The translations under genes and the position numbers were made by a program. Below are positions 15,032 to 33,627 of a stretch of 64,000 nucleotides of DNA, one piece after another. The first letter of the stretch is position 1. Every line of letters begins with the position of its first letter. Source of the DNA: a bacterium (GTDB taxonomy: Bacteria; CLD3; SB21); the NCBI GenBank assembly GCA_013360215.1, contig JABWCP010000016.1:1-64000 (forward strand), written 5' to 3'. Below the pieces are notes generated by a model. The model saw nothing but the letters and a program-made list of their open reading frames with translations, did not search any database and was not told the origin of the DNA.

Positions 15032-16372
15032 TTATACCAAACCTTGATCCATCATAGCGTTAGCGACTTTTAAGAATCCGGCAATATTTCCTCCAACCAC
15101 ATAGTTACCCGGGTGACCGTATTCTTTTGCTGTATGCAATGACGTATCGTGTATACTCTTCATGATACCACGCAGACGTTGATCCACCTCTTCAGCGGAC
15201 CACGGCAACCGCATACTGTTTTGTGTCATTTCCAGACCGGATGTTGCTACACCGCCGGCATTGGAAGCTTTACCGGGTGAAAACAGAATACCGGCTTGTT
15301 TGAACACTTCGTAGGCATCCAGAGTACTCGGCATATTAGCGCCTTCGCAAACGCAGATACATCCGTTTTTTACAAGCTCTTTGGCGTCTTCGACGCCAAG
15401 TTCATTTTGTGTAGCGCATGGTACGGCAACATCCACTTTTACACTCCATGGACGTTTGCCGGCATGATACTCTACTTTGAACTCATCAGCGTAATCTTTG
15501 ACGCGGTCTTTACCGCTTGCACGCATTTTGAGCATATAATTTATTTTTTCACCTTGAATGCCGTCTTTGTCATATACGAAACCATCGGGACCTGAAATAG
15601 TAACTACTTTGCCGCCCAATTCCGAAATTTTAAGTGCCGCACCCCAAGCCACATTGCCAAATCCCGATACGGCAAAGGTCAACCCTTTAATGTCTTTACC
15701 TTTGGTGCGCAGCATTTCTTGTGCAAAATAGGTAACGCCAAATCCTGTAGCTTCCGGACGAATCAAAGAACCGCCCCAGTTGATACCTTTACCCGTGAGA
15801 ACACCGGTAAATTCATTTTTCAGCCTCTTATATTGACCAAAAAGAAATCCGATTTCGCGACCACCGACGCCGATATCCCCTGCGGGAACATCCAGATCGG
15901 CACCGATATGTCTGTACAGTTCCGTCATAAAACTTTGGCAAAAGCGCATCACTTCGTTATCACTTTTTCCTTTGGGATCAAAATCCGAACCGCCTTTTCC
16001 GCCGCCCATGGGCAGCGTAGTTAGGCTATTTTTGAAAACCTGTTCAAAAGCCAAAAACTTTAAAATCCCGAGATTGACGGACGGGTGAAAACGTAAACCA
16101 CCCTTATACGGCCCGATAGCGCTGTTCATTTGCACGCGAAAGCCGCGATTGATATGTATTTCTCCCTGGTCGTCTTGCCAAGGAACACGAAACATGACTA
16201 CACGTTCCGGTTCGACCATACGCTCTAATATTTTAGCCGTACGATATTCCGGATGACGGTCTAATACCGGTTCTAATGATTCGGCCACTTCTTGGACTGC
16301 TTGATGAAATTCCGGCTCCGCCGGATTTTTGGCTTTAACTTGCGCCAAAACCGATTTGACGTAGTCTGACAT
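15032..16372 (-). CDS. gdhA: Glutamate dehydrogenase (hexameric, probably NADP-dependent)
   Basis: This 446-residue enzyme interconverts 2-oxoglutarate plus ammonium and glutamate. The size matches the small hexameric class. Landmarks are the substrate-site segment YKGGLRFHPSVN near residue 88, the catalytic-Lys loop LPMGGGKGGSDFDP near residue 120, PAGDIGVGGREIGFL near 160, the Rossmann motif GFGNVAWGAA near 237, and CEGANMPST near 343. Coenzyme choice cannot be proved from the sequence; the resemblance to biosynthetic GDH favours NADP. A purine-rich site (AGGTAGAGG) lies upstream of the ATG. It stands alone, with a 596-bp non-coding gap before the next gene. Confidence 0.95.
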   Translation of the reverse strand: MSDYVKSVLAQVKAKNPAEPEFHQAVQEVAESLEPVLDRHPEYRTAKILERMVEPERVVMFRVPWQDDQGEIHINRGFRVQMNSAIGPYKGGLRFHPSVNLGILKFLAFEQVFKNSLTTLPMGGGKGGSDFDPKGKSDNEVMRFCQSFMTELYRHIGADLDVPAGDIGVGGREIGFLFGQYKRLKNEFTGVLTGKGINWGGSLIRPEATGFGVTYFAQEMLRTKGKDIKGLTFAVSGFGNVAWGAALKISELGGKVVTISGPDGFVYDKDGIQGEKINYMLKMRASGKDRVKDYADEFKVEYHAGKRPWSVKVDVAVPCATQNELGVEDAKELVKNGCICVCEGANMPSTLDAYEVFKQAGILFSPGKASNAGGVATSGLEMTQNSMRLPWSAEEVDQRLRGIMKSIHDTSLHTAKEYGHPGNYVVGGNIAGFLKVANAMMDQGLV

Positions 16373-16915: not shown

Positions 16916-16949
16916 CAAAAAAAAACCCTTCCTCGATGAGGAAGGGTTC
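16914..16949 (-). terminator. Intrinsic terminator of the receptor/secreted-protein/PorV cluster
   Basis: On the minus strand an 11-bp stem AACCCTTCCTC/GAGGAAGGGTT with a three-base loop is followed by an unbroken T-run. It lies about 20 bp past the PorV-like stop and closes the cluster. Confidence 0.92.
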
Positions 16950-16968
16950 TTGTCAAAGGAAGATATTC

Positions 16969-18000
16969 TTAGAATTTAAACCCGACGGAAAAACGATGTG
17001 TTCCGCCAAGAATTCCCATATTCAAATAACCGTAATCAACAGTAGCTCCAAAGCTGTCGTTGAATTTATAATCAACACCAGCGCCCATAGTCAAACCGCT
17101 CATACCAGCATCGCTACCGGTATTATAGTCACGGTCTTTTTTCAATGTCGAAGTGTAGCCTGCGCGAGCAAAAAACATATTTTGGAATCCATATTCCAAT
17201 CCAAAATTTGTACGGCTGGCTTGAAAACTGTTAATATTTTGCTCTAACATACCCGTAATCGAATTCTGTTCGTTACGCATCAAATCCATACTGGCACCAA
17301 AATTAACAGAAGCCGGCATATTGAAGAATTCAGACTCATATGCCAAATAAGCCGTTTCGTTCGTCAAAGGATCAACTGTAATGGTTTGTAGGAGACCATC
17401 ACCTTTGTATGATGCTTGAGGGCCAAGGTTGTTTACAACAAAACCTAACTTCAAACCACGGAAATCGGTGTTATAGGTAAAGCCAAAATCAAACGCATAA
17501 TTGCTCGCGCTAACAAGATCAATTTGCGAATTGATAAATTTGACCGTTAAACCGCCGCTTACTCGATCCGTGACTTGTTTGGCAAAAGTTACACCTACGG
17601 AAAGTTCGTAAGGTGCATAATTTCCAATTCCGCCATCAGGATTTGCTTCACTTGTGCGCTGAATATCGCCATAACTCATGTAGTTAATGCTGGCGCCGAT
17701 CACACCTGCATCACCCATGGGAAATGTTATCGCACCGTAGTTTGAAGAAATGCCTGCAAAATGATTCAAATAAGAAAAACTAAATGTCGGCGAAGTAGCT
17801 GCTGACACATTAGCCGGATTCCAATAAATAGCATTGGCACCGGATGTCGTAGTAATGCCCGATTGGCCGAGCGCGACTTCACGTGCGCCCATCGGAACTT
17901 TGAGGAACATAAAGCCGGCCGTACCGCGCTTTTCTTCACCTGCAAAAGCATTGATGGTGTACATCAGTGCCAAAGCTAAGGCTAATATCTTATGTTTCAT
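16969..18000 (-). CDS. PorV/PorQ-family outer membrane beta-barrel protein
   Basis: This 343-residue protein has a signal peptide (cleaved near NAFAG, residue 20) and the conserved N-terminal block AGFMFLKVPMGAREVALGQS followed by ANAIYWNPANVSAA. These mark the PorV/PorQ (FadL-like) family; the rest alternates like a beta-barrel and ends in a terminal Phe (FSVGFKF), the usual BAM signal. PorV homologues shuttle substrates of the type IX secretion system to the attachment complex. Here it sits 71 bp behind a large protein with a sorting-like C-terminus, which fits such a role (inference). I start at ATG 18000 behind AAGGAG; the 22-residue upstream extension has no support. Confidence 0.85.
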   Translation of the reverse strand: MKHKILALALALMYTINAFAGEEKRGTAGFMFLKVPMGAREVALGQSGITTTSGANAIYWNPANVSAATSPTFSFSYLNHFAGISSNYGAITFPMGDAGVIGASINYMSYGDIQRTSEANPDGGIGNYAPYELSVGVTFAKQVTDRVSGGLTVKFINSQIDLVSASNYAFDFGFTYNTDFRGLKLGFVVNNLGPQASYKGDGLLQTITVDPLTNETAYLAYESEFFNMPASVNFGASMDLMRNEQNSITGMLEQNINSFQASRTNFGLEYGFQNMFFARAGYTSTLKKDRDYNTGSDAGMSGLTMGAGVDYKFNDSFGATVDYGYLNMGILGGTHRFSVGFKF

Positions 18001-18071
18001 ACTTTCTCCTTTTGTGATTAGTAGTCCCGCCGACAATGTCGGCGGGGTTACTTTAAACTGCTTCAATACGA

Positions 18072-21000
18072 TTATCGAATATCCGGACCGCTAATCGTAT
18101 ATTTCTCCATGATGACAGCAAATTTCACTGTCTTCTTACCATATCCAGGAGCGTCAACTAACGCAATATACATTCCGCTTGCAACACCATCACCGGTTTC
18201 GTTCAGCAGATCCCATATTTCTGTGCTGGTTTGGGCTGCTGTCGCATCGAAAGTGATATCCAACGGATTGGTATTTAAACGATCGTTGTTGGAACCTGCA
18301 GTATGACGCAACGTGCGCACAAGGTCACCGGCGACAGTAAATATACGGATCGTACATGTACCCGGCAGACCTGTGAATTTGACGCGTTTGTCAAATAAGC
18401 TAGCCTGGTATGTCGAACGGCCGTAGTAAGGATTAGGTACTACAAGAATACCATCCATACCTTTTTTCTTTGCACTGGATGTCGTAGCCGTTTTACCAGC
18501 CGTCGTAGAATAAGTGTATGTATCCGACGGTGTAAGTACGTGATTTACACGGAATTTGAACGTACCATTATCAATCCAGTTGGAGAAGATATTATGACGT
18601 TCTGCTGCCGTGATAGCCGTTCCACCATCTGAGCCGGCACCGCGAGCCGTGACATATAAGCCATGTAACGTCGCCGCATCGGCATCCGGCGCTGAAGAAA
18701 CTGCGTCACCACGATATCCCATCCACATGACAGCGTAGGAAACTTTATCATATGGCGCAGTATAAAAGCCCAGAGCGCGCGTACCGCCGCTATAGGAGTT
18801 GGTGTCAAAGTATGTATAGTTAAAGCGACCGACACCACCTGAAGTGTAAGAATTAACACCGTCCATTGTCCAAGCATCGAATGTATCACGATCGCGGAAG
18901 TTCACTTCGATTTGACGCGGAGCGGTATTACCGTCTGTTTCATCCACTTCGAACACGGAGAAAGGAGCCAACGTAGTATCATTAGAAGCCGCGGTGGAAC
19001 CTGTGCCGTGTTTGTAAATGACCTGCCATCCCGAAGGATCGCGGCTCATCACGATATCAAAGTCACGACGATCCGGTATCTCAACGCCACCGATACCCCA
19101 GAATTCTTCAGTAAACTCAATAACTCCACCAAATTCGGTAAGCCCGCCGGGACCTGACCACCAGCGAGTTTCTTTTCCTAATCCTGTGCGATAAGCACCG
19201 TATTCGTATGAAGAACTCTTCCAACCGCTGGCATCTGTTACTTTGATCATAACGCCATCAACGATGCCGAATTCTTCCTGATCCGGATGACCCGCTTGGG
19301 CAATCGTTGTGTTAAATAAGCGATCATCGTACACATAGTCGCTATCATTAGGAGCGGTCTTATCCGGATTATAAACTCCATTATTATCCACATCCACGTA
19401 CGTATCGGGATTGTCCACAAGATTTGAAAAAGCAACCGTCTGATTCGTTGTCGTATTGATCACGCGATACGCGAGTGTTCCTTCGGCGATACCATGGAGC
19501 GGTTTGCCATCCGCCGAATCATTGGTTGTAAACATTTCGATACGGTAGTTATTACCAGTCACTGCACCGGGATTGACCACTTCGATTTCGACAACGCCGT
19601 CGCTTGGTCCTGCGTGTGTAAGCGTTGAAACTGAACCGTTAAAGTCGTTTCCTGCCACGGCCGCCATCGGCGTAACGGCGGTCACATTGGAGCCCGTTGA
19701 GGTCTCAAGTGAACGCGGCACAACCGCAAACGGGTAAGGTACATTACCCATCAAAGGATCATTAATTAAAACATTGGCTATAGCAATGTAAGGCTGAGCA
19801 TCATATGCCGTAACAGAATAATAATATGTCGTAAGATTGGTTACTTCTTCATCTACATAGCTATAACGCAAACCATTATCAGTGCCCAGGATTATTTCAC
19901 GGCTTGAGAGGGTACCATTGGCATCAAAATACAGCTCCCGAATTCCCGTGATACCGTTATTATCATCATATTGCGCGAGCTGCGTAAAGGAGCCGGGTAA
20001 ACCGGTCAAACTGCGATATACGCGATATCCTTCGAAGTCCATCACACGATAATCTGCGGTATATGGGGTTTCTGGATTCGTGGTACGTATATAGGCTTTA
20101 TTGGGATCGCCGAAATGATCTTCGGAATATTCCGAATTATTTTTCCAAGTTACAACTACTTTTCCGTCCAAACCGGCCAAGGACATTAGAGGTACATCCG
20201 GCGCTGACGGCGCTGCCAAATCCGCATCAAAAATAGTCTGGATCAAGTCATCCGTAGCAAACATTTTAGCTACGGCATTAAGGTTATCTACCGTACTGTT
20301 GGTACGATTTACATTAGCACCGACCACACCGGCCCAAACTTCCTGACGTGCACCGGCAACCACTTCAAACGGGCCTACACCGTGTAGAATACGTTTATCC
20401 GTTGGATTCGCATCAAGGGGGCCGGTCTGCGAAACAGGATCACCAGGGAAGAACCAACCACCATACGAATTTGGGCTAACTGATCCGGCATTAGTCAAGC
20501 CTCTTAATAAGTTATAACGTTCCGTGTTATTATTAGGATCGCCATTGTTATTGTACGTATTAAGCGTCGTAGCGCCAAGCCAAATCGAATCGCCACCTAA
20601 TGTGCGACTAGCTACTAAACCAATATTTTCATCAATAACTTTCACTTTTTTATGACCAGCGTTTTTGACAGCCAAAAAAGGCGAAACACTTGCCGCAGAA
20701 ACTACAGGACCCTGGAAGAAATCAAAACCAACGGCCGAATGAGCATCACTTTCATCAACATTGTATACGAAGCCCAAACCGCGTGAAGAGTCGGAACCGA
20801 TTAAATCGTTGCCCGAATTATCCACATCGGCATCCATCCACAGACCCAAATAAGAATTCGGATAATTTGTGTTGGTTTTGTTGTCAAATATGAACTTCAA
20901 AAAGACGCCATCGCCCGCATCACCGCGATCGGCTAATACGATGGATTCGAGGGTAATTTGAATACCAAGACCGGCATAGGGACTGGAGGTTGTACCTTCC

Positions 21001-21614
21001 TGGCTCAGTGTGGTATCCAAATCATTGAAAACAGCCCACGTAATGCCTACACCGCCAGAGGAATATAAGTAGGGATCACCTGATGAAGTTTTATCACCAG
21101 GCCATGCTAGCCAATCCGCATTGTTTTCACTGGAGGCGTCTCCAGATTTCTCGTCAATATAGTATACTTTATATTCAGGAAGCAGCGGATCCGCAGCTGT
21201 CAACTGTTCAAATGGAACGTTGGAGTTCGTGATCGGACCAGGTTGAAACTCCGTTCCAAACTGAGTCTCAGACACAACCGGTACACCATTCTTGATAGTA
21301 CCCAACCATGCACCGGCTGCGAACACGATGGTGACATTACTTCCCTGAGGGAATTCGCCTCCTGCGTTATTACCATTTTCGTCGGCATCCGGCGAATCAT
21401 ACATAAAGGAACCTTGATTACGCATTACGTAATTCCAATTCGTTCCTTTACGTTTAACAAATATAATGTCCACAATATCCGGTTTACGTAATTTCATTTT
21501 AAGACGCGTATTCGCATCTACTTTTGCAATACTTGCAGTATTCATCGTTGCTATTAAGGCGACTACCGCCGCAACGACTACCGCAGGTATTACTATCCAC
21601 TTTTTCATACTCAT
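18072..21614 (-). CDS. Very large secreted protein with fibronectin-like region and type IX-like C-terminal sorting domain
   Basis: This 1180-residue protein has an N-terminal hydrophobic signal (about residues 5-27) and no later membrane segment. Residues 30-450 are rich in Asp/Asn/Gly/Ser with aromatic residues and match no enzyme I recognise. Residues 480-610 look like a fibronectin type III fold (VVTWKNN, FEGYRVYRSL, YYYSVTAYD). From about residue 1053 comes a C-terminal domain with VVPNPYYGRS, TGLPGTCTIRIFTVAGDLVRT and GDGVASGMYIALV. This is the layout of sorting/FlgD-like C-terminal domains of secreted proteins in FCB bacteria. Being placed between a TonB-dependent receptor and a PorV-like barrel, it is probably exported and surface-attached. 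AGGAG lies before ATG 21614. Confidence 0.75.
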   Translation of the reverse strand: MSMKKWIVIPAVVVAAVVALIATMNTASIAKVDANTRLKMKLRKPDIVDIIFVKRKGTNWNYVMRNQGSFMYDSPDADENGNNAGGEFPQGSNVTIVFAAGAWLGTIKNGVPVVSETQFGTEFQPGPITNSNVPFEQLTAADPLLPEYKVYYIDEKSGDASSENNADWLAWPGDKTSSGDPYLYSSGGVGITWAVFNDLDTTLSQEGTTSSPYAGLGIQITLESIVLADRGDAGDGVFLKFIFDNKTNTNYPNSYLGLWMDADVDNSGNDLIGSDSSRGLGFVYNVDESDAHSAVGFDFFQGPVVSAASVSPFLAVKNAGHKKVKVIDENIGLVASRTLGGDSIWLGATTLNTYNNNGDPNNNTERYNLLRGLTNAGSVSPNSYGGWFFPGDPVSQTGPLDANPTDKRILHGVGPFEVVAGARQEVWAGVVGANVNRTNSTVDNLNAVAKMFATDDLIQTIFDADLAAPSAPDVPLMSLAGLDGKVVVTWKNNSEYSEDHFGDPNKAYIRTTNPETPYTADYRVMDFEGYRVYRSLTGLPGSFTQLAQYDDNNGITGIRELYFDANGTLSSREIILGTDNGLRYSYVDEEVTNLTTYYYSVTAYDAQPYIAIANVLINDPLMGNVPYPFAVVPRSLETSTGSNVTAVTPMAAVAGNDFNGSVSTLTHAGPSDGVVEIEVVNPGAVTGNNYRIEMFTTNDSADGKPLHGIAEGTLAYRVINTTTNQTVAFSNLVDNPDTYVDVDNNGVYNPDKTAPNDSDYVYDDRLFNTTIAQAGHPDQEEFGIVDGVMIKVTDASGWKSSSYEYGAYRTGLGKETRWWSGPGGLTEFGGVIEFTEEFWGIGGVEIPDRRDFDIVMSRDPSGWQVIYKHGTGSTAASNDTTLAPFSVFEVDETDGNTAPRQIEVNFRDRDTFDAWTMDGVNSYTSGGVGRFNYTYFDTNSYSGGTRALGFYTAPYDKVSYAVMWMGYRGDAVSSAPDADAATLHGLYVTARGAGSDGGTAITAAERHNIFSNWIDNGTFKFRVNHVLTPSDTYTYSTTAGKTATTSSAKKKGMDGILVVPNPYYGRSTYQASLFDKRVKFTGLPGTCTIRIFTVAGDLVRTLRHTAGSNNDRLNTNPLDITFDATAAQTSTEIWDLLNETGDGVASGMYIALVDAPGYGKKTVKFAVIMEKYTISGPDIR

Positions 21615-21657
21615 TGTATAACTCCTGTATTTGATAACTATCTTCGCTTGTAATATA

Positions 21658-21685
21658 GAGGGTGCTTTCGGATGAAAGCACCCTC
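21658..21685 (-). promoter_or_regulatory. Intercistronic 12-bp hairpin without T-run
   Basis: A perfect 12-bp inverted repeat GAGGGTGCTTTC/GAAAGCACCCTC with a 4-base loop lies 12 bp after the TonB-receptor stop and 44 bp before the next start. On the transcribed strand it is followed by TATATTAC rather than a T-run. It is more likely a partial attenuator or a 3'-end stabiliser setting the receptor above the downstream genes than a full terminator (inference). Confidence 0.6.
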
Positions 21686-21696
21686 CGGATCATACA

Positions 21697-24633
21697 TTAG
21701 AAATTGAAGATAACGCCAAGACGTGCTTGACGGGGTGTATCCCAACTAAAGCCATCATGATGATTGACATCATATTGTGGCAATCTACGTGCTTTTTCTA
21801 CTTTTGAATAGTCGTTCCATTCAGGCGAATTGATAAAACCTGAATCATCAGCACGACCACTACTTGCAAATACCGTGTTCACGTTTTTACGATCAAGAAG
21901 GTTTAACACTTGGACGTAAAGATTGACATTCATGTTCTCATTGATATAAAACGTCTTATCCGCTTTCATATCAATGCGGAATGTCCACGGTGAGCTTTGT
22001 GAATTACGGCGTGCTGTAGCATTACCTGCCGGTACACCAGTTTGCTGGATCGCTACTACCGTCGTCGGAGTATACGGGAAACCACTACCAGCGGACACGA
22101 GGAAGTTTAGTCCTGCATTCTCAATGATATTCATACCTCCTACGGACGGGCCCTCACCTTTACCATTACGCACATCTACATTGGCATTAATGTTGTGACG
22201 TTGATCAAAATTCAAAGGGGCATTAAAACGGGCCGTGTTGAATCCAAGCCAGGAAGCACGGAAATTAGAATTTGTTCCCGAACCTGACCCTGTAGCTGTC
22301 TGCAGAGTATAAGCCAAACGACCGGAGAATTTACCTATACGACGGGCCTCAAGTGAAATATTCACGCCCTGTATAACGCCGGCATCCTCGTTATCATAGA
22401 TGATTAATCCATTGGGTATCGAAGTGATCGGGCTTGAATTCACAAGATCCGTAATATCCTTGTAGTATGCTCCGACGTCAAGTGCTACCTTATCACTCAA
22501 CGCACGGCGAAGTCCGACTTCATATTGTGTGCTCTTTTCAGCTTGAAGATTGGGATTTCCCAATGTCGTTGCAAACGGAGCATTTAACGATTGTTTTTCG
22601 AGAAATGCCGGGGAAACATACAAATCTTGCAAATTTGGCTGTTGGAAGAATCTACCATAGCTCATACGGAACTGCGTTTTTTCAGAAATCGGGAAGCTGA
22701 TCGAAAAACGCGGAGAAATACGATGGTCTGTCTTAGCTGAAGTATAGTCTTCTGAGCCTAAAACTTGATCAGCACCGGTAGGATTACCTAGATCTTTAAC
22801 ACGTTTCACACCGGGGTTAAACGCGTCATAACGAATACCAGCACGCAATACTAATCCTTCGTATTCTAGTTTGTCTTGAACAAACGTCGAGAAACTTGTC
22901 GGATGCGGAGGTCCCATAATCGGAGTTTCCGCATTTAGATTATCAGAATTAACCTTCTTAAATTTGATTTTGCCAGATGAAGTGACATAGCCTTTGTATC
23001 CGATGTTATCATTGGAACCTGTAACCGGATTGTCAATATCAAGGATATTCAAATAACGAATCGTGTGATAAAAATAATCCGCACCAATTTTGATCTGATT
23101 GTGCTTATCCAATTGGTTGGTATAGTTGGCTTTGAACGCAATATACTGGTCATCATCACGACGATAATTGAGTATGCCGTTATTCGGATCAAAAAGGAGA
23201 TTATCCGCTTCGTACGTTCTAAAACCTGTTGAACCTTTTTGACGATCCGCATATTCACCCACATTATCAAACTCAAGAAAATCATTCATGAGCTTACGGG
23301 TATTGGAAAAATAGTTGATCCCCAAATCAAAAAAGCTGTTTTGATCCATAGTATAGGTTGCTATAGTACCTACGTTTAGGTTTTGAATCTCACGGCGAAG
23401 ATTGTCGGCGAGAGACAACGTTCTGGCAACCGTATTGCTACGGCGGACCGTATTACTATAATTACCCGATACGTCAATTCGCAGTTTGTTCGGCATTACG
23501 TCAAAGGTTAACTTGGCTTGAAGGTTTGTTCCTCTATCGGAATTAATACCCGCGCCGGAAAGACCGTCAGGACGTGCACCTTTTTTATATTTTACATTGC
23601 CGTTTTTGTCAGTTTTCCAAATAACGGTATCAATCGGTACTTTAGGCGTACTACTAGGCGTATCACCATCACCATCATGGTCATACAAACGGGCACCTTT
23701 TTCAAGTTCAAACTCAGGATAGCCCCAAACACTAGGTTCCGCATCATCTATTTCACGCACTTCACCGGAAACAAAGAACCGAATCATGTTATTATTCGGA
23801 ATCAACGGTCCACCGAAACCCGCACTCAACACTTTATAACCATAGGTTTCCGCAATACCGAGACCGGCCGGATCACCGACAGCTTCGATATTACCGCTAT
23901 AACGTTGCGAGCCTGATTTCGTTGTCACTTGAATAATACCCGATTGATTACGTCCGTATTCCGCATCAAAACCACCAGTAATCACTTGCACTTCTTCCAC
24001 GGCACCCGAAGGTACATTGGCATTGGAAGTACCGGTCAAAAGGTTGTTTTGTTGGAAACCGTCCATATATACACCGGTTTCAGACGAACGACCGCCGCGA
24101 ACATTGACATTGGCAGTACCACCGTCAAGGTTACGGGTATTGCTGACCACGATACCGACGCCAAGGTTAGCCGCCGCCTGGAAACCACGAACCGGCAGGT
24201 TCTTGATTTCTTCAGCCGTCGTAACGGACATCGTCATGGTTTGATCTTTTTGGATCAAAGGACGCTCGGCAACAACTACCTGCTCTTCGCCAGATACCGA
24301 CGTAGCAGAAATTTCGAAGTCCAAACGTGTCGTAAAGTCCGGAATCACACGGACGTTTTGTTTGGTCAACTTCGTGTAACCGATCATGCTTGTGGCCACC
24401 GTATAAACACCGGCGGGAACGTTGAGGATCGTGTACTCACCTTTGGCGTTGGTCGTTGCGCCCATGGAAGTACCCTCGATCAGGATATTCACACCCGGAA
24501 GTGCGTCACCCGATTCCTTGTCTTTTACCACACCGGTGATCTTGCCCGTATTACCTGCAAACAGGTACATCGGAAGCAAGAACACCATTGTTGCCACCAG
24601 CAACAATCGTTTTAGTCTCGTACTACCAGACAT
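21697..24633 (-). CDS. TonB-dependent outer membrane receptor with CarboxypepD_reg-like domain
   Basis: From ATG 24633 the 978-residue protein has a signal peptide (to about residue 26). A CarboxypepD_reg-like domain follows (GKITGVVKDKESGDALPGVN, then TTNAKGEYTILNVPAGVYTV). Next come the plug domain with NVNVRGGRSSETGVYMDGF and the segment ITGGFDAEYGRNQSGIIQVT, and a long 22-strand-type barrel ending LGVIFNF. Such receptors import large or scarce ligands using TonB energy; the ligand here is unknown. No SusD-like partner is beside it; the neighbour is the 1180-residue secreted protein. An in-frame ATG at 24717, also with a strong GGAGG site, would add 28 residues before the signal peptide. 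Confidence 0.92.
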   Translation of the reverse strand: MSGSTRLKRLLLVATMVFLLPMYLFAGNTGKITGVVKDKESGDALPGVNILIEGTSMGATTNAKGEYTILNVPAGVYTVATSMIGYTKLTKQNVRVIPDFTTRLDFEISATSVSGEEQVVVAERPLIQKDQTMTMSVTTAEEIKNLPVRGFQAAANLGVGIVVSNTRNLDGGTANVNVRGGRSSETGVYMDGFQQNNLLTGTSNANVPSGAVEEVQVITGGFDAEYGRNQSGIIQVTTKSGSQRYSGNIEAVGDPAGLGIAETYGYKVLSAGFGGPLIPNNNMIRFFVSGEVREIDDAEPSVWGYPEFELEKGARLYDHDGDGDTPSSTPKVPIDTVIWKTDKNGNVKYKKGARPDGLSGAGINSDRGTNLQAKLTFDVMPNKLRIDVSGNYSNTVRRSNTVARTLSLADNLRREIQNLNVGTIATYTMDQNSFFDLGINYFSNTRKLMNDFLEFDNVGEYADRQKGSTGFRTYEADNLLFDPNNGILNYRRDDDQYIAFKANYTNQLDKHNQIKIGADYFYHTIRYLNILDIDNPVTGSNDNIGYKGYVTSSGKIKFKKVNSDNLNAETPIMGPPHPTSFSTFVQDKLEYEGLVLRAGIRYDAFNPGVKRVKDLGNPTGADQVLGSEDYTSAKTDHRISPRFSISFPISEKTQFRMSYGRFFQQPNLQDLYVSPAFLEKQSLNAPFATTLGNPNLQAEKSTQYEVGLRRALSDKVALDVGAYYKDITDLVNSSPITSIPNGLIIYDNEDAGVIQGVNISLEARRIGKFSGRLAYTLQTATGSGSGTNSNFRASWLGFNTARFNAPLNFDQRHNINANVDVRNGKGEGPSVGGMNIIENAGLNFLVSAGSGFPYTPTTVVAIQQTGVPAGNATARRNSQSSPWTFRIDMKADKTFYINENMNVNLYVQVLNLLDRKNVNTVFASSGRADDSGFINSPEWNDYSKVEKARRLPQYDVNHHDGFSWDTPRQARLGVIFNF

Positions 24634-24988
24634 AATGTCCTCCTTCTGTTGGTTATTAAGAGCGTGTACGATGAATGAATTTTTTTCGATAAGTTTAGTA
24701 ATCATATCTTTTCTCATTTACCTCCTTTGTAAATGCACATAGATAAGAAATGTGTTTTTCCGACTTGACATCTGCTTCTGAGATTAATTCGACCTACCCT
24801 TTCGTTTTTTTGTGAAAGAATCAGCACTACGGTTACAAGCGTGCCGCCCTCTCCTTCACATCATACTCAAGGATACTGCTTTCAGAGAACAGTTTTAAGA
24901 GAACGTTATTAAAAAGATTTGTTTACAACCCGGCAACAAGCTTTTTGAAAAGACTAGGGACACTTATTGCACAAGATAAGGTTTTACA
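24634..24988 (-). promoter_or_regulatory. Long leader of the TonB-receptor mRNA with two ribosome sites
   Basis: The predicted transcript starts near 24988, leaving about 355 nt before ATG 24633. It contains a 9-bp inverted repeat TGTGAAGGA/TCTTTCACA (24811-24819 with 24852-24860, one G-U pair) enclosing a second small stem GCAC/GTGC. It also contains two GGAGG sites, one 3 bases before ATG 24717 and one 5 bases before ATG 24633, in the same frame. A long leader on a receptor gene suggests post-transcriptional control, but I recognise no known riboswitch. Confidence 0.4.
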
Positions 24989-24994
24989 ATAAAC

Positions 24995-25023
24995 AATATA
25001 GGCGGCCTTAAAATTATTGTCAA
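24995..25023 (-). promoter_or_regulatory. Sigma-70-type promoter of the TonB-receptor cluster
   Basis: The minus strand has consensus TTGACA (25018-25023), a 17-base spacer and TATATT (24995-25000). It is the strongest-looking promoter in the window and points at the receptor, the secreted protein and the PorV-like gene. Confidence 0.8.
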
Positions 25024-25491: not shown

Positions 25492-28400
25492 ATGTATTTG
25501 TCACGGCTTGAAGTTTTCGGTTTTAAAACATTTGCGCAGAAAGTGGATCTTCGTTTTGACGAGGGTATCACCAATATCGTCGGCCCCAACGGCTGTGGTA
25601 AGTCCAACGTCGTAGATGCCCTCCGCTGGTCACTCGGTGAACAAAAAGCCAGTATCCTGCGTTCCGAAAAAATGGAAAACGTCATTTTTAACGGAACCAA
25701 ACAACGTAAGCCCCTCAATTTTGCCGAAGTCAGTCTGACCATACAGAACACCAAAGGTATCCTGCCGACGGAATATACCGAAGTCACGATCACCCGTCGG
25801 ATATACCGATCCGGTGAAAGCGAATATTTCCTAAACCGCCTCCCTTGCCGCCTCAAAGATATCAATGATCTTTTTATGGATACCGGTATGGGCGCGGACG
25901 CGTACTCCGTGATAGAGCTCAAGATGGTCGAACAAATCTTGTCCGATAAAACGGAAGACCGCCGGAAAATGTTCGAAGAAGCGGCGGGCATTACCAAATA
26001 TAAAATTCGTCGTCGTCAGACGTTTAACAAACTGCAAACGACCAAACTCGATCTCAACCGCGCCAACGATATCATCGTCGAAATCGAAAAAAAGGTCAAT
26101 TCCCTCAAACGCCAAACTCAAAAAGCCAAGCGCCACATGAAACTGTCCGCCCGTCTCAAATTGGCGGAAGTCCAACTGGCGCATCATGAATACCAAAAGT
26201 TTGCCGCGCAACTGGCGCCGATGGCCGAAAAACTGGAAAACCTCGAGTTTGTCGCCGAACAAATGCTGGGCGAAATTTCCAAAAAAGAAGCCGAAGTCGA
26301 GGCCATGAATACCGGCCTGATCGAGCGCGAACAAAGTTTACGTGCGATCCAACTGCAACTCGAAGAGCAGGATAAAAAAATCAAAACAATCGAGGATGAA
26401 ATCCTCGTCAGCCGCGAGCGCAAAAAAAATCTTGAAGCGATGATAGGTCGCTATGCAGAAGAAAAAACCGCATTGGAAGCCAAGCGCGAACAACTGCAAG
26501 CCCGCATCACCGAACTCTCCGCGACGCTCGCCGATTTGGAATCGCAATACAACGGTATGTCCGGAACCGTCGAAGCCAAAAAAACGGAAATGCTGGAGTT
26601 TGACCAGCAGATACAAGCCAAACGTACCGAACTGGATACCGTACGTAAACAATCCGTACAACTCATCGACGAAGTGGCTAAAAAACGCAATGCGTTTCAA
26701 CTCACTAAAAACAATATCCAGAATATCGAACGCAAAATCGCCGATCTGCATCGCGAAGGCGAATTTCATAACACCTCATCCGAAGACGCGATCAGCGCGC
26801 TGGATGAAAAACGCTATGAAAAGAAAAAACTCGGCGAACAAGTTGAAGCGTTGCGTAATAAAATAACGGCTGACCAATCGGCTTTAGATACGCTTCGCCA
26901 TACACTGGACGATTTGCGCTCTAAAAAGCTGCATGATGAGGCCGAAATCAAAGCGCTGCATGCCAAGATGGCTATTATTCAAAAAGCCATCGAAAATCAT
27001 GAAGGGTTTCCCGAAAGCGTTCAGTATATCCTATCTTCCAAACCGTCCGGCATTCAAGCAACGGTCGCCGATATGATCGCGACGGATGATACGTACAAAA
27101 AAGCAATCGAAACTGCACTCGGCGATTCCTTCGCCTACCTTGTGGCCGGCGGAAGTGATCACGTGCACGACGCGCTGACCCAGCTCAATACCAACAAAAA
27201 AGGCAGTGCGACATTCCTCAATCGTCAAAAAATCGGGCAATTCAAACCTGCTTTTGAAGCCGAAGCACTTGCTTCCGTACGCGGCGAGATCATCGGAATG
27301 GCTACCGAACTGGTGCGATGTGATGATCCGGCAATGGCGCGTCTGCTTTTGAGCGATGTGGTGATCGTCGAAAATTTTGAAAAAGCAACGCGGCTTGCCG
27401 ATCAATTTCCCGCTGTACGTTTCGTCACATTGCAAGGTGAAATCGTCAAAGGCAATTATCTCATCAAAGGCGGCGGTACCGTCAAATCATCCGATAGCCT
27501 TATCGGTCAACGCGAAGCTTTGAATAAACTGCAGGATCAGTTATCCCAATACGAAGCCTCCGTTCGCCGTTATCAGGACGAACTGCAGACTACCGACACT
27601 ACGCTGCGCGAACTCACCCAGACGATCGCAAATAATCAAAATCTTCTGAAGAATACTGAGCAAAAATTTGTCGCTCTGGAAAAAGAAATAGCCCAATCCG
27701 AATACGAACAAAAACGTTCTCGTGAATCCTTGACACGCAATGAGGATGCGCTTCTGCAAGCGCAGCGTGAGATGGAAGCGTTTCAGCTTACCATCGAAGA
27801 TATGGGGCCTGAAATGGATGAACTCGAAGGCCGGCGCGGTTCGCTCGAACTTGAAACCCGGCGCATGGAACAACAGCTCGCCGAACTGGAAAAGCAGCGG
27901 CGCGAACGTTCCGAAGGATTCAACGAAATGATTTCATCCTTTCTCCGTATGGAAGGAGAAATCAAAACAAACCGCAACAATATCGAATCCAGCCGCACAC
28001 AAATTGCAGATATTGAAGCAACCATTCTTCGTCGCGAAGAAGAAACTGTCGCCGCTGAAAATGAAATTGCCCGTATGGGTGACGTTTTCACCGAACGCGA
28101 AGGCGAACTCATCACTCTTTCGCGTGAACGCGACGTGATCGAACGCAACCGCGATGCCGAAGGTACCGAAGTCGCCCGTCTGCGTGAAACGACCGGAAAA
28201 ATAGAAGCCGAGTTGAAAAAAATGCGCCGTCAGCGCGAAGAATTCCTCAACTCACGCCATACCATGGAGCAAGAAACGACCAATCTTCGTTTTGAACTTC
28301 GTGCGCTGGAAGAACGCATCAAACGCGATCACGATTTTGACTTGACCAAAGACTCCATCGAAATACTGATCCTCAGTACGGAACCCGGCAGTAAAGAAGA

Positions 28401-29307
28401 GGAATCCGAAGAAGATGCACCGGAGAGCGCTCCGGATACCGCGCCGCAGGAAGTATCTGGCGTCGAAAATCAGGAAATGAATATTGATGAAGTGCTGGAA
28501 AGCGATCTTGTTTCCGATGCATCGCAAGCACCTGAGACGGCATCTTTTGATCCGGAGGCGACTAAACTCGAAATAGATGAACTGCGCCGTAAACTCAAGA
28601 GTATCGGCCCGGTTAACATGGAAGCATTTGCTGAATTTCAAACGGAAAAAGAACGCCTTGATGTATTGCTCAAACAGCGTCAGGATTTGCTGGACGCCGA
28701 AGCGCAACTTTTGGAAACGATCAATGCCATCAATGAACAGGCACAAAAACAGTTCATGGAAGTCTTTGAAAAAATCCGTGCTAATTTTATCAAGATATTT
28801 ACGGGTTTATTTGTTGATTCCGAAGCCGATCTCAAACTGGAAGCCAATGAAGATATTCTGGAAGCCAATATTGATATTTTAGCCCGACCGACCGGCAAAA
28901 AAATCCAACACATTCAGCTGCTCTCCGGCGGTGAAAAAACACTAACGGCTATTTCTTTACTTTTTGCCATCTACCTTGTCAAACCTAGCCCATTCTGTAT
29001 TTTGGATGAAGTGGATGCGCCGCTGGATGACACCAATATTGATAAATTCACTAAAATCCTCAAAGACTTCTCCAAGGATACTCAGTTTATCGTTGTAACG
29101 CACAATAAGCGTACGATGGAAGCTGCGCGTAATATTTTTGGTATCACCATGCAGGAAGCCGGCGTATCCAAAGTCGTATCGGTTAAATTTTCCAATCGCG
29201 GCGATGTCAGCAAAACCGACGATATCGAGCAATTTATCAACGAAAATCAGGTCGAAGACCTGACGAAAGAAGTCAAAGACACACCGCCGTCGCCGAGCGT
29301 TGCGTGA
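25492..29307 (+). CDS. smc: Chromosome segregation protein SMC
   Basis: SMC dimers with ScpA/ScpB organise and separate sister chromosomes. The 1271-residue protein has the N-terminal ATPase head with GPNGCGKSN (residues 32-40) and two long Glu/Lys/Arg-rich coiled coils. A hinge lies around residues 510-650, and the C-terminal head carries the signature LLSGGEKT near 1143 and Walker B FCILDEVDAPLDD near 1168. It is longer than the usual 1150-1190 because of an acidic, Ser/Pro/Ala-rich insertion (about residues 964-1023) just before the C-terminal head, plus a tail after it. AAGG precedes ATG at a slightly long spacing. It is not next to scpA/scpB here. Confidence 0.96.
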   Translation: MYLSRLEVFGFKTFAQKVDLRFDEGITNIVGPNGCGKSNVVDALRWSLGEQKASILRSEKMENVIFNGTKQRKPLNFAEVSLTIQNTKGILPTEYTEVTITRRIYRSGESEYFLNRLPCRLKDINDLFMDTGMGADAYSVIELKMVEQILSDKTEDRRKMFEEAAGITKYKIRRRQTFNKLQTTKLDLNRANDIIVEIEKKVNSLKRQTQKAKRHMKLSARLKLAEVQLAHHEYQKFAAQLAPMAEKLENLEFVAEQMLGEISKKEAEVEAMNTGLIEREQSLRAIQLQLEEQDKKIKTIEDEILVSRERKKNLEAMIGRYAEEKTALEAKREQLQARITELSATLADLESQYNGMSGTVEAKKTEMLEFDQQIQAKRTELDTVRKQSVQLIDEVAKKRNAFQLTKNNIQNIERKIADLHREGEFHNTSSEDAISALDEKRYEKKKLGEQVEALRNKITADQSALDTLRHTLDDLRSKKLHDEAEIKALHAKMAIIQKAIENHEGFPESVQYILSSKPSGIQATVADMIATDDTYKKAIETALGDSFAYLVAGGSDHVHDALTQLNTNKKGSATFLNRQKIGQFKPAFEAEALASVRGEIIGMATELVRCDDPAMARLLLSDVVIVENFEKATRLADQFPAVRFVTLQGEIVKGNYLIKGGGTVKSSDSLIGQREALNKLQDQLSQYEASVRRYQDELQTTDTTLRELTQTIANNQNLLKNTEQKFVALEKEIAQSEYEQKRSRESLTRNEDALLQAQREMEAFQLTIEDMGPEMDELEGRRGSLELETRRMEQQLAELEKQRRERSEGFNEMISSFLRMEGEIKTNRNNIESSRTQIADIEATILRREEETVAAENEIARMGDVFTEREGELITLSRERDVIERNRDAEGTEVARLRETTGKIEAELKKMRRQREEFLNSRHTMEQETTNLRFELRALEERIKRDHDFDLTKDSIEILILSTEPGSKEEESEEDAPESAPDTAPQEVSGVENQEMNIDEVLESDLVSDASQAPETASFDPEATKLEIDELRRKLKSIGPVNMEAFAEFQTEKERLDVLLKQRQDLLDAEAQLLETINAINEQAQKQFMEVFEKIRANFIKIFTGLFVDSEADLKLEANEDILEANIDILARPTGKKIQHIQLLSGGEKTLTAISLLFAIYLVKPSPFCILDEVDAPLDDTNIDKFTKILKDFSKDTQFIVVTHNKRTMEAARNIFGITMQEAGVSKVVSVKFSNRGDVSKTDDIEQFINENQVEDLTKEVKDTPPSPSVA

Positions 29308-30201: not shown

Positions 30202-33200
30202 ATGAACCCTACGCGCCGTCTCCTGATCATTGCTTTTTTTTTCAGCGCTATCCCGGCATTGGGCCAACGCCTCTTCGTTCGCCATTATTCGACCGCCGAA
30301 GGGTTGCCTCAAAATCAGGTTTTTGCCATTCATCAGGATCAACATGGTTTTCTTTGGTTTGGAACCGGCGGCGGCCTCAGCCGATACGACGGGCGTCAAT
30401 TTCGCAATTACACCAAAGAACATGGCCTAGCCAGTAATGTCATCCGGGCCATTCATCGCGACAAAGATCAAAACCTTTGGTTGGCTACCGATGAAGGTAT
30501 CAGTTGTTACTTAGCCCAACGCGACACATTTATCAGTTATCATTCCGATCATATCGGCCAAGGTACGGTGCGCGCTATAGCCGGAGACGATCGCCGGCTC
30601 TGGTTTGCTACGGCCGGCGGACTTACGCGTTATGATTTTAACGATCATTCGTTTATAAACTTTACCACGGCCAACGGTTTACCTGCCAATCTCGTTCAAG
30701 CCGTTACTGTAACGGCCTACGGGAAAGTTTTCATCGGAACCAATCAGGGACTGGCTGTGATGCACGATCCGGTCAGTGATCGTATCGAACAAGTTCCAAT
30801 CCCTGGAAATAACAAATTACTTCTCCATGTCGAAGCGCTTTATTGTGATGCACGCAACCGTATTTTTGCCGGAACGCAAGGCGGTGTCATACGCATTGAC
30901 AGTCTCAAACCGGAAATCATCAGCACAGCGGACGGTCTTACCAATCCTGTCATCCGAGGTATTACAAGCGACCAATCCGGTCACATCTGGTTTGCTACCG
31001 AAGACGGGCTTTATGTCATGACCCGATCAGAGCGCCCTTACTTATTTAACAGCTACACCACACGCAATGGTTTTTTTGCCAATCAATATTACGCTGTTTT
31101 TCAGGATTCCGAAAACAACCTTTGGTTTGGCTCCTCCCGCGGTGTCAGTAAACTGATTTCCGCTGACCTCATTTCATACACCGAAGCAGAAGGTCTTGGC
31201 AACGATGTCGTGATCGGCATAACAAAGGCTACGGATAAAACATGGTATATTACTACCAACGACGGTATTTCCATTTTTCGCGAAGGACGGTTTCAGAACC
31301 TGTCAGACACAGAAGGTCTCATTGCCAAAGAAATATGGGATGCCGCAACGGATTCGGCGGGAGTAATATGGTTAGCGACCTATCGCGGTCTTCAGGCTTT
31401 GCTTCCCAAAGAACCGCGCACGCGGCTTCCGATACATACCAAACTTCCGCGTGCAGGCACTATATCATCCGGATATTACAATCTTACCTTACCGCCTAAC
31501 GATTTTATACATAATAACCGCATCGTGGATGTTTTGGTTGACCGCCGCGGACGCATTTGGTTTGCCAGCACGGATAAAGGAACGGGTTACGTTGAAATCA
31601 ATTCGACCGGTGAAATTTCCGTTCGAACATTTACTACCGCAGACGGTTTGTACAGTAACAACGTATGGATGATCTATGAGGACCGGCGCGGGCAAATATG
31701 GGCGGGCACGATCGGCGGCGGTATAGCGCGTTGGGATGAGGTATCTCAGCGTTTTACCAGCCTCAATAAAGGTCGCGGGCTTTCGGACGATGTCGCATTA
31801 AGTATTTACGAAGACCGACGCGGCGGTTTATGGATCGGCACTGAGCGCGGCGCGATGCGTTTGGCACCGGAAATCGTGAGCGGAGATTCTTTTCCCGGCG
31901 ATCTGCGTTCATACATTAGATTAGTGTCTAAACGCGACGGCTTGTCCGATAATACCATCAATGCGATTGTGGAAGATTCGGAAGGCATGATTTGGCTGGG
32001 TACGAATAACGGGCTTAATCAATTTAATCCCGAAACCGGGCTGACGCTTCAAGTTTACAACAAAAAGCGAGGCCTTATTGACAATGAAGTAAGTACACAA
32101 AACGCACTGCGCTTTTATGATCACGAGACCTTGATCGTCGGTACCAGTGCCGGTATCACGTTGCTGCCATTACGTTCATTTCGCTCGCCCCTACCGACCC
32201 GACCTGTTGTTTTGATGCAAGAATTTATGGCCGAAGATAATGCCAACAAAACGACCCGGTTGATCCCCATTGCCATGCGCCCCGATACAAACGTTTCGGA
32301 TGCATTTTTCAGTACACTTCGTACATCCGTACCGGTGGTCAGTTATCTCGAAAACAATATCACATTTCGTTTTGTAGCGCCGTCGTTTAAAGATGAAAAT
32401 GATGTGCGGTACCGTTACCGTTTACGCGGCTTTGACCGATTTTGGTCGGACCCGACGCCGGAAAATCATGTGCGTTATACCAACCTCAACGACGGTGATT
32501 ACGTATTTGAGGTAATCGCCGGCAACGGCAATGGCGCCTGGAGCGACGTTCCCACCCGCGTAACGTTTTCTGTCATGACGCCCCTATGGAAAAGCTGGTG
32601 GTTCATCACTTTTTCAATCACATTTTTCAGTTTAAGCATTTATACCGCTTATAAGTTCCGCGCCAATATCGCACGCCAACGCACCGCCGAACTTGAACAA
32701 AAAGTATTGCAGCGTACACGCGAATTGGTCGTACAGAAAGAGACCGTCGAGCGTATTTTGAACGAACTCAAAGAAACGCAGATCCATCTGATACACTCCG
32801 AAAAAATGGCTTCACTTGGTCAGATGGTAGCCGGCATTGCGCATGAGATCAATAATCCGGTCGCTTTCGTCAAAGGTAATATTTCATTATTGGAACGGCG
32901 GCTTCATGATCTGGAACGCGTATTCACCAGTTTCTCCGACGTTTTTGATTTCTACGATAAATTCAACGAATTCAGCGACGATCTACACAAAGATTTTCGC
33001 GCCAAACTGGAAGAAATAGATCGTATTATTGCGTCGACGCGATTTGAAAAATTTTTAGGCGATCTGCCTCAAGTTGTCAACGAAATGCGGGACGGAGTGG
33101 ATCGCACGCAAAAAATCGTAGAAGATCTGCGAAATTTTTCACGTCTGGACGAATCGCAATTCAAAGAAATTTCCATCATTGATAGCATTGAATCCACACT

Positions 33201-33627
33201 CAACATACTCAAAAACGAGTATAAAACGCGTATTACCATTCATCGCAATTTCGGCGACGTGCCACCGGTGTATTGCAATCCGGGTCATATCAATCAAGTT
33301 TTTATGAATTTGCTGCAAAATGCTTTTCAAGCGATCGAAGGTGACGGCAACGTTTGGATTCGCGTTGTAGCTGCCAGTAATAACATTTTAATCGCTATTC
33401 GCGACGACGGTAAAGGCATTCCCGGAGAAATTCAAAACCGCGTTTTTGATCCTTTTTTCACAACGAAACCGGTCGGTAAAGGTACGGGGCTTGGTCTGGC
33501 TATTTCATACAAAATCATCGAAGCACACAAAGGCACGATTTTCTTTGAGAGCACCCCGCAGCAGGGAACTGAATTTAAAATAACATTACCGATACGCCGC
33601 TTGGCCGATCTCCAAAAGCCGGAATAA
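30202..33627 (+). CDS. Sensor histidine kinase with two-component-regulator propeller and Y_Y_Y domain
   Basis: This 1141-residue sensor starts with a signal peptide (to about residue 21). A large periplasmic double beta-propeller follows (about 25-690), built from repeats such as DQHGFLWFGTGGGLSRYDG and DRRGQIWAGTIGGGIARWD. Then come a Y_Y_Y domain (about 700-790), one transmembrane helix (about 797-817), a short coiled coil and the kinase. The phospho-acceptor His is in GIAHEINNP near residue 880; the ATPase boxes are NLLQNAFQA (about 1036), DDGKGIP (about 1068) and GTGLGLAIS (about 1094). An insertion separates the H box from the ATP domain. No receiver or DNA-binding domain follows and no response regulator is nearby. 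It starts 4 bp after nth. Confidence 0.92.
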   Translation: MNPTRRLLIIAFFFSAIPALGQRLFVRHYSTAEGLPQNQVFAIHQDQHGFLWFGTGGGLSRYDGRQFRNYTKEHGLASNVIRAIHRDKDQNLWLATDEGISCYLAQRDTFISYHSDHIGQGTVRAIAGDDRRLWFATAGGLTRYDFNDHSFINFTTANGLPANLVQAVTVTAYGKVFIGTNQGLAVMHDPVSDRIEQVPIPGNNKLLLHVEALYCDARNRIFAGTQGGVIRIDSLKPEIISTADGLTNPVIRGITSDQSGHIWFATEDGLYVMTRSERPYLFNSYTTRNGFFANQYYAVFQDSENNLWFGSSRGVSKLISADLISYTEAEGLGNDVVIGITKATDKTWYITTNDGISIFREGRFQNLSDTEGLIAKEIWDAATDSAGVIWLATYRGLQALLPKEPRTRLPIHTKLPRAGTISSGYYNLTLPPNDFIHNNRIVDVLVDRRGRIWFASTDKGTGYVEINSTGEISVRTFTTADGLYSNNVWMIYEDRRGQIWAGTIGGGIARWDEVSQRFTSLNKGRGLSDDVALSIYEDRRGGLWIGTERGAMRLAPEIVSGDSFPGDLRSYIRLVSKRDGLSDNTINAIVEDSEGMIWLGTNNGLNQFNPETGLTLQVYNKKRGLIDNEVSTQNALRFYDHETLIVGTSAGITLLPLRSFRSPLPTRPVVLMQEFMAEDNANKTTRLIPIAMRPDTNVSDAFFSTLRTSVPVVSYLENNITFRFVAPSFKDENDVRYRYRLRGFDRFWSDPTPENHVRYTNLNDGDYVFEVIAGNGNGAWSDVPTRVTFSVMTPLWKSWWFITFSITFFSLSIYTAYKFRANIARQRTAELEQKVLQRTRELVVQKETVERILNELKETQIHLIHSEKMASLGQMVAGIAHEINNPVAFVKGNISLLERRLHDLERVFTSFSDVFDFYDKFNEFSDDLHKDFRAKLEEIDRIIASTRFEKFLGDLPQVVNEMRDGVDRTQKIVEDLRNFSRLDESQFKEISIIDSIESTLNILKNEYKTRITIHRNFGDVPPVYCNPGHINQVFMNLLQNAFQAIEGDGNVWIRVVAASNNILIAIRDDGKGIPGEIQNRVFDPFFTTKPVGKGTGLGLAISYKIIEAHKGTIFFESTPQQGTEFKITLPIRRLADLQKPE

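Follow-up and report, generated by a model that had tools for sequence, protein, structure and literature searches.

In type IX secretion, cargo proteins of type A are collected from the SprA translocon by the barrel protein PorV via their C-terminal domain (CTD) (PMC10994853), and cargo proteins of type B depend for secretion and anchoring on a PorP/SprF barrel whose gene lies next door (PMC9143113, PMC12618676). In PorU and PorZ the CTD is not removed, and PorV and PorQ hold these two proteins on the surface (PMC5562754); both have extra C-terminal residues compared with other cargoes (PMC11285876). TonB-dependent receptors (TBDRs), in turn, can carry a surface lid, as in BtuB-BtuG (PMC10404256), and the secretion of PopC needs the TBDR Oar together with ExbBD-TonB (PMC6434023). 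Here we analyze a locus in a 64,000-nt stretch of a genome that is most likely of the Calditrichota (contig JABWCP010000016.1, hereafter the window), in which the genes for a TBDR, a secreted surface protein (open reading frame 2, ORF2) and a PorV-like barrel adjoin in this order of transcription, all on the minus strand. We suggest, with a probability of roughly 45%, that ORF2 is exported by the type IX secretion system (T9SS), is anchored by the barrel and captures a ligand for the TBDR, the three proteins forming one outer-membrane unit.

The trio resembles several known systems and fits none in full; it looks like a dedicated cargo-barrel pair joined with a TBDR. As in PorU-PorV and PorZ-PorQ, a CTD protein would be retained by a barrel of the PorV/PorQ family, and the CTD of ORF2 matches those of PorZ and PorU; like them, ORF2 carries extra C-terminal residues, although in its case they are more numerous and their number is exact. 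Unlike these proteins, ORF2 has no match to the C25 peptidase or the PorZ propeller, and the unit includes a TBDR. In the type B systems SprB-SprF and PG1035-PorP the cargo gene is likewise directly upstream of one for a dedicated FadL-like barrel, by which the cargo is secreted and anchored, whereas here the CTD is type A/PorZ-like, the barrel belongs to the PorV family and a TBDR gene lies upstream. SusC-SusD shares the TBDR gene directly upstream of a putative large surface partner; however, this genome has no SusD, its TBDR scores under the SusC/RagA cut-off, and the partner is a putative T9SS cargo rather than a lipoprotein. BtuB-BtuG is a TBDR with a non-SusD surface lid capping the barrel, a role that ORF2 might play, but BtuG is a lipoprotein. 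A TBDR is also linked to a secreted protein in Oar-PopC of Myxococcus, where Oar, like the window TBDR, has a carboxypeptidase-regulatory-like N-terminal domain; PopC is not known as a CTD protein of the T9SS, nor is a PorV partner known for it. The trio was not found described in open-access PMC papers, the sole literature searched, an absence that is no proof of novelty.

Conservation of the trio

Scanning 84,980 species genomes yielded 79 named loci. Since the loci were gathered by ORF2 motifs alone, the presence of TBDR and PorV genes beside them is unselected. Complete TBDR-ORF2-PorV triads in the same order and on the same strand were found at 57 of these loci, the two intergenic gaps having medians of 26 and 19 nt, and at seven further loci a TBDR-ORF2 pair is followed by the contig end; a TBDR gene lies directly upstream of ORF2 at 64 of the 79. 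An earlier set, comprising regions of the window genome, 40 regions from other genomes and Rhodothermus marinus, holds 23 strict triads. Judged by record titles, complete triads occur in Zixibacteria, Ignavibacteria, Melioribacter, Neomarinimicrobiota (Marinimicrobia), Calditrichota, Handelsmanbacteria, 'Bacteroidetes' and Flavobacteriales. The three genes keep together, in constant order, across much of the Fibrobacteres-Chlorobi-Bacteroidetes (FCB) superphylum. A survey of synteny in this group had been proposed in a preliminary description of the window made from its sequence, and the three families prove to be co-conserved rather than scattered.

With the 8 PorV-family matches and 19 TBDR plugs of the window genome (G000, contig C16; 3.72 Mb, rated 100% complete), we estimate the chance that an ORF2 gene is flanked by both partners on the correct sides to be of the order of 1e-5 per locus. 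Among 73 non-redundant triads, distance correlations between the three proteins are 0.87-0.90, compared with permutation maxima of ~0.2. Three genomes (G061, G053 and G008) hold two triad subfamilies, and all three genes switch subfamily jointly, which is more than descent alone gives.

The plasmid search returned R. marinus pRMAR01 alone, which carries a triad in the same order (L034; TBDR RMAR_RS14120, ORF2 RMAR_RS14115, PorV-like barrel RMAR_RS14110), followed by peptidoglycan-recognition and serine-hydrolase genes, with a type I-U CRISPR cas7 gene within ~6 kb. A phage origin was rejected, as there were no matches among 50,697 phage records. Lineage-specific genes found downstream of triads encode a PIG-L deacetylase, a GWxTD protein, CTD proteins with a CBM56-like module, and M6 and C39 peptidases; they hint at varied substrates and lie outside the core unit. 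A gene for a ~455-residue protein follows PorV in Ignavibacteria/Bacteroidetes loci L129, L131, L132, L134, L150, L151, L166, L169 and L183; that of L129, the sole one scanned, is a GWxTD-domain protein.

ORF2, the PorV-like barrel and the type IX machinery

The sorting-like C-terminal domain that the preliminary description ascribed to ORF2 is a type IX CTD. The C-terminal 141 residues of the window protein match the PorZ CTD (E 1.9e-7), the only CTD listed for it. Among 33 CTDs of the family, all match the PorZ CTD, 20 the PorU CTD, 30 the type A model TIGR04183 at E<=0.01, and four CHU_C; the family thus belongs to type A, and the window ORF2, through its PorZ match, does so indirectly. Membership in type B (TIGR04131) was not found for the family CTDs, which match TIGR04183 and PorZ instead. 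PorZ (5m11) is also the sole match of the ORF2 family profile to PDB sequences below E 0.1 (E 0.029), and the best PDB structural match of the ORF2 model.

The main-subfamily ORF2s that are paired with their own PorV carry a C-terminal extension of exact length, a feature that is new here. Triad ORF2s of the window's subfamily end 13 residues past the invariant CTD lysine in 66 of 71 cases and 16 residues past it in four, namely the window protein and its family relatives, whereas lone ORF2s mostly end five residues past it, including paralogs in the window genome that share about half of their residues with the window ORF2. The tail consensus is roughly K-L-A-[VI]-[IF]-Q-E-[QE]-[QE]-x-L-D-x-[FY], and the last residue is Phe or Tyr in 51 of 65. 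Counting intact cases, a PorV-family gene lies immediately downstream of 72 of 77 tailed ORF2s but of only two of 24 untailed ones (Fisher p ~2e-15, which is no true probability, the sequences being related).

The barrel, described earlier as PorV/PorQ-type, scores 197 bits with the PorV_fam profile NF033709 (cut-off 90) and is a subfamily member, below the equivalog cut-offs of PorV and PorQ (88 and 129 bits versus 250 and 220). Its model is matched best in the PDB by PorV of two T9SS complexes, 8gl6 (8gl6_F) and 6h3i (6h3i_F). The PorP/SprF barrel model TIGR03519 is not listed for it, and one relative reaches 29 bits against a cut-off of 90.55. Elsewhere in the genome, contig C28 encodes a C25 protein that is PorU-like (343 bits versus the PorU cut-off of 420) and has a CTD itself; its gene lies directly upstream of a PorV-family gene, and two other PorV-family genes on C13 and C12 each neighbor a gene for a CTD protein. 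One barrel for one CTD protein is therefore a habit of this genome. Because of these pairs, and because the tail is almost confined to ORF2s with an adjoining PorV gene, the proposal that the barrel is dedicated to its neighbor is strengthened, and we consider it probable. A further PorV-family gene sits within an ATP synthase operon, with an atpG-like gene on one side and an atpD-like gene on the other (L022:2989-4095; G000:C11:82989-84095).

Of the type IX components named in the preliminary description, porK/L/M/N and sov (sprA), SprA is present in the window genome, as a 2385-residue frame with an SprA_N domain (PF14349) on contig C4, whereas the GldL/GldM motor was not found; the SprA frame and the PorU-like sortase beside its PorV-like gene show that core genes of the system exist. 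SprA_N was detected in 37 of 117 sampled genomes (G000-G116). ORF2 and SprA largely coincide: 29 of the 31 ORF2-positive genomes are also SprA-positive, eight have SprA only and 78 have neither. Within the sensitivity limits of the profiles, GldL and GldM had no match in the window genome at E<=0.001 and none in any SprA-positive sampled genome, so that the system differs from the canonical T9SS of Bacteroidota. The profiles were convincing in one sampled genome only, G069, which has no SprA_N match, and such absences are thus limited by sensitivity. Every SprA-positive genome in the sample has a type IX translocon without a recognizable motor.

Apart from its CTD, ORF2 has no Pfam or NCBIfam domain, and no Pfam family was assigned to it, in line with the earlier remark that it lacks a recognizable enzyme domain. 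An enzyme role was rejected on this ground and on the weakness of the Foldseek matches, which were not used: those to copper amine oxidases and to GH65/GH94/GH116-type proteins have query TM-scores <0.2 and mostly a root-mean-square deviation >9 A. In the Asp-rich loop of the N-terminal domain, D261 and D263 are invariant and D270 and D275 are conserved in >90% of 67 homologs; judging from this pattern, the loop is a possible metal site. The predicted beta-rich domain and its loop would fit a role in binding a ligand or a metal.

The window genome also holds ORF2 paralogs on contigs C8, C11, C14, C10 and C41/C33, the last pair being N-terminal pieces at contig ends, none of which, as far as the contigs reach, directly adjoins a TBDR or PorV gene. 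Contigs C11, C14, C33 and C41 break within these paralogs at residues ~104-179, pointing to putative near-identical repeats of the N-terminal domain, produced by recent duplication or gene conversion. Tandem arrays of lone paralogs, nearly all untailed and with no PorV or TBDR gene between them, were observed at L066, L067, L069, L177 and L179.

The receptor and the layout of the locus

The receptor identity given in the preliminary description is borne out by three domains, CarbopepD_reg_2, plug (PF07715) and TonB barrel (PF00593), the last two above cut-off. A conserved VVVAERPLI segment ahead of the plug resembles a TonB box, and its binding to TonB is putative. The start codon may be either of two in-frame ATGs, at 24717 and 24633, which are 84 nt apart and each preceded by a strong Shine-Dalgarno sequence; the former adds a 28-residue leader ahead of the signal peptide. 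The SusC/RagA model TIGR04056 is not listed for the window TBDR, and relatives reach 71-86 bits against a cut-off of 368. SusD/RagB (PF07980) was found in none of 11 genomes, the window genome and its 10 nearest, in a search whose positive control worked, in agreement with the claimed absence of a SusD-like partner. Membership in the SusCD systems was rejected, there being no SusD and the TBDR not being of SusC type.

Features of the locus and its flanks (window coordinates)
Feature	Position	Strand	Remarks
TBDR, 1006 residues	21697..24717	-	CarbopepD_reg_2, plug and TonB barrel; alternative start 24633
TonB-box-like segment EEQVVVAERPLI, TBDR residues 144-155	24253..24288	-	consensus V.VVAERPLI in 73 triad TBDRs
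ORF2, secreted surface protein, 1180 residues	18072..21614	-	predicted N-terminal signal helix; triad family
Conserved N-terminal beta-rich domain, ORF2 residues ~50-465	20220..21467	-	structure prediction, mostly of high confidence
Asp-rich loop DADVDNSGNDLIGSD, ORF2 residues 261-275	20790..20834	-	conserved; possible metal site
Type IX CTD, ORF2 residues ~1032-1167	18114..18521	-	most like CTDs of PorZ/PorU
C-terminal extension, ORF2 residues 1165-1180	18075..18122	-	16 residues after invariant CTD lysine K1164
PorV/PorQ-family FadL-like barrel	16969..18066	-	NF033709 profile; start probably ATG 18000, not TTG 18066
Promoter-like site TTGACA-N17-TATATT	24995..25023	-	11/12 consensus match
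Intrinsic terminator of the cluster	16921..16951	-	14-bp stem, T-tract; z = -4.5
Glutamate dehydrogenase gene	15032-16372		flanks the cluster
SMC-like protein gene	25492-29307		flanks the cluster; judged from its sequence

The three reading frames of the outer-membrane cluster reported earlier were all located, and so was the clean terminator said to close it, which was matched in strength by none of 200 shuffles and had been missed by a simple scanner. The single strong promoter fared less well: the site matches the consensus closely, but such sites occur in the region near chance level (26 found versus 21 expected) and this one sits ~280-360 nt upstream of the TBDR start, so that the claim is plausible at most. 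No Rfam elements were found in the window. The two flanking genes have no evident link to the cluster. About 5.5 kb from it, at 30202-33627, lies a gene for a large sensor kinase of 1141 residues, which combines propeller repeats of the Reg_prop type with Y_Y_Y and HATPase domains.

A proposed capture unit and its alternatives

In the unit that we propose, ORF2 would be exported by its CTD through a SprA-type type IX translocon, by analogy with known cargoes, and collected there by the PorV-family barrel encoded downstream. The known logic of type A and type B cargoes provides a template for the barrel being ORF2's own, which is the best-supported step. The barrel would then stay bound to the uncleaved CTD and the C-terminal extension, as a dedicated surface anchor; that it is a stable anchor rather than a recycling shuttle seems to us rather likely. 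Anchored over or beside the TBDR, ORF2 would capture a ligand, which the TBDR would import with TonB energy. The constant presence of the TBDR and its TonB-box-like segment suggest that anchored ORF2 acts with it, and we put the chances that ORF2 is its ligand-capture partner at about even; capture followed by hand-over of the ligand, as in SusCD or BtuB-BtuG, would be the simplest form of such joint action. ORF2 might thus do the job of the SusD and BtuG lipoprotein lids of Bacteroides while being built from T9SS cargo. We infer its retention on PorV and its contact with the TBDR, as well as the direction of transport and the ligand.

Several observations weigh against this proposal. The PorU-like sortase is present and might cleave the CTD of ORF2. 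ORF2 has no recognized ligand-binding domain, and, PorZ aside, none of its structural matches reaches a query TM-score of 0.2. Lone ORF2s without a TBDR or PorV gene exist (on C8, C11 and C14 of the window genome and at L179 of KSB1), and ORF2 is therefore not intrinsically a TBDR partner. Triads of the Rhodothermus type are untailed, nine of nine ending five residues past the lysine; the tail is thus not needed for pairing with PorV, and we rejected it as a universal mark of triads. Two further untailed ORF2s have a PorV gene and five tailed ones have none. Finally, the correlations of gene distances partly reflect species phylogeny.

The alternative that survives best, though we hold it to be unlikely, limits the functional association to cargo and barrel. 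ORF2 would be structural or adhesive, for instance an S-layer-like coat or an adhesin, and the TBDR would be co-regulated or serve envelope physiology without being capped. The lone, multicopy paralogs without a TBDR, the lack of a ligand-domain match and the strong precedent for pairing of cargo and barrel all speak for it, but the TBDR is conserved as tightly as the barrel (64/79 directly upstream) and its tree follows that of ORF2. Alternatively, ORF2 could be treated like any ordinary type A cargo: the barrel, as a recycling shuttle, would pass it to the PorU-like sortase to be cleaved, and ORF2 would then be attached covalently or released. The pair on C28, in which the PorU-like C25 protein has a PorV-like partner to itself, is compatible with this, yet a shuttle needs no co-encoding with each cargo, the CTDs of ORF2 most closely resemble those of PorZ and PorU, which are retained, and paired forms of ORF2 carry a fixed extension, which together make it improbable.

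The TBDR could also help to drive or complete the secretion or placement of ORF2, in place of the PorL/PorM motor, by analogy with Oar, which is required with ExbBD-TonB for the secretion of PopC in Myxococcus (PMC6434023). The failure to detect GldL and GldM in any SprA-bearing sampled genome and the conserved TonB-box-like motif would agree with TonB-powered export; against it, other CTD proteins of the genome (the PorU-like protein and the lone ORF2s) have no adjoining TBDR, and the motor genes may be too divergent for the profiles, as the case of G069 illustrates, and we regard it as very improbable. Hardly any weight is left for a unit in which the TBDR and ORF2 sense a surface cue with no nutrient import: the TBDR has a long N-terminal extension, but this is the common carboxypeptidase-regulatory-like domain and not STN, and beside the cluster, flanked by the glutamate dehydrogenase and SMC-like genes, no sigma/anti-sigma pair was seen.

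Returning to the capture unit, we tentatively propose, while regarding it as somewhat doubtful, that it represents a third architecture of energized uptake widespread in FCB bacteria, with a TBDR, a T9SS-secreted lid held by its own PorV barrel via a tailed CTD, and an SprA without a recognizable motor. A question that follows is how SprA is powered where GldL/GldM-like motors are unrecognizable. Since R. marinus carries the plasmid triad, the idea is testable in culture. If true, it would explain two-part outer-membrane importers in FCB bacteria without SusD, here in a family of the Calditrichota, and would assign a role to PorV paralogs and to a large family of T9SS proteins now labeled 'hypothetical'. 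The C-terminal tail of exact length would then be a readable signal that parts retained from released T9SS cargo.

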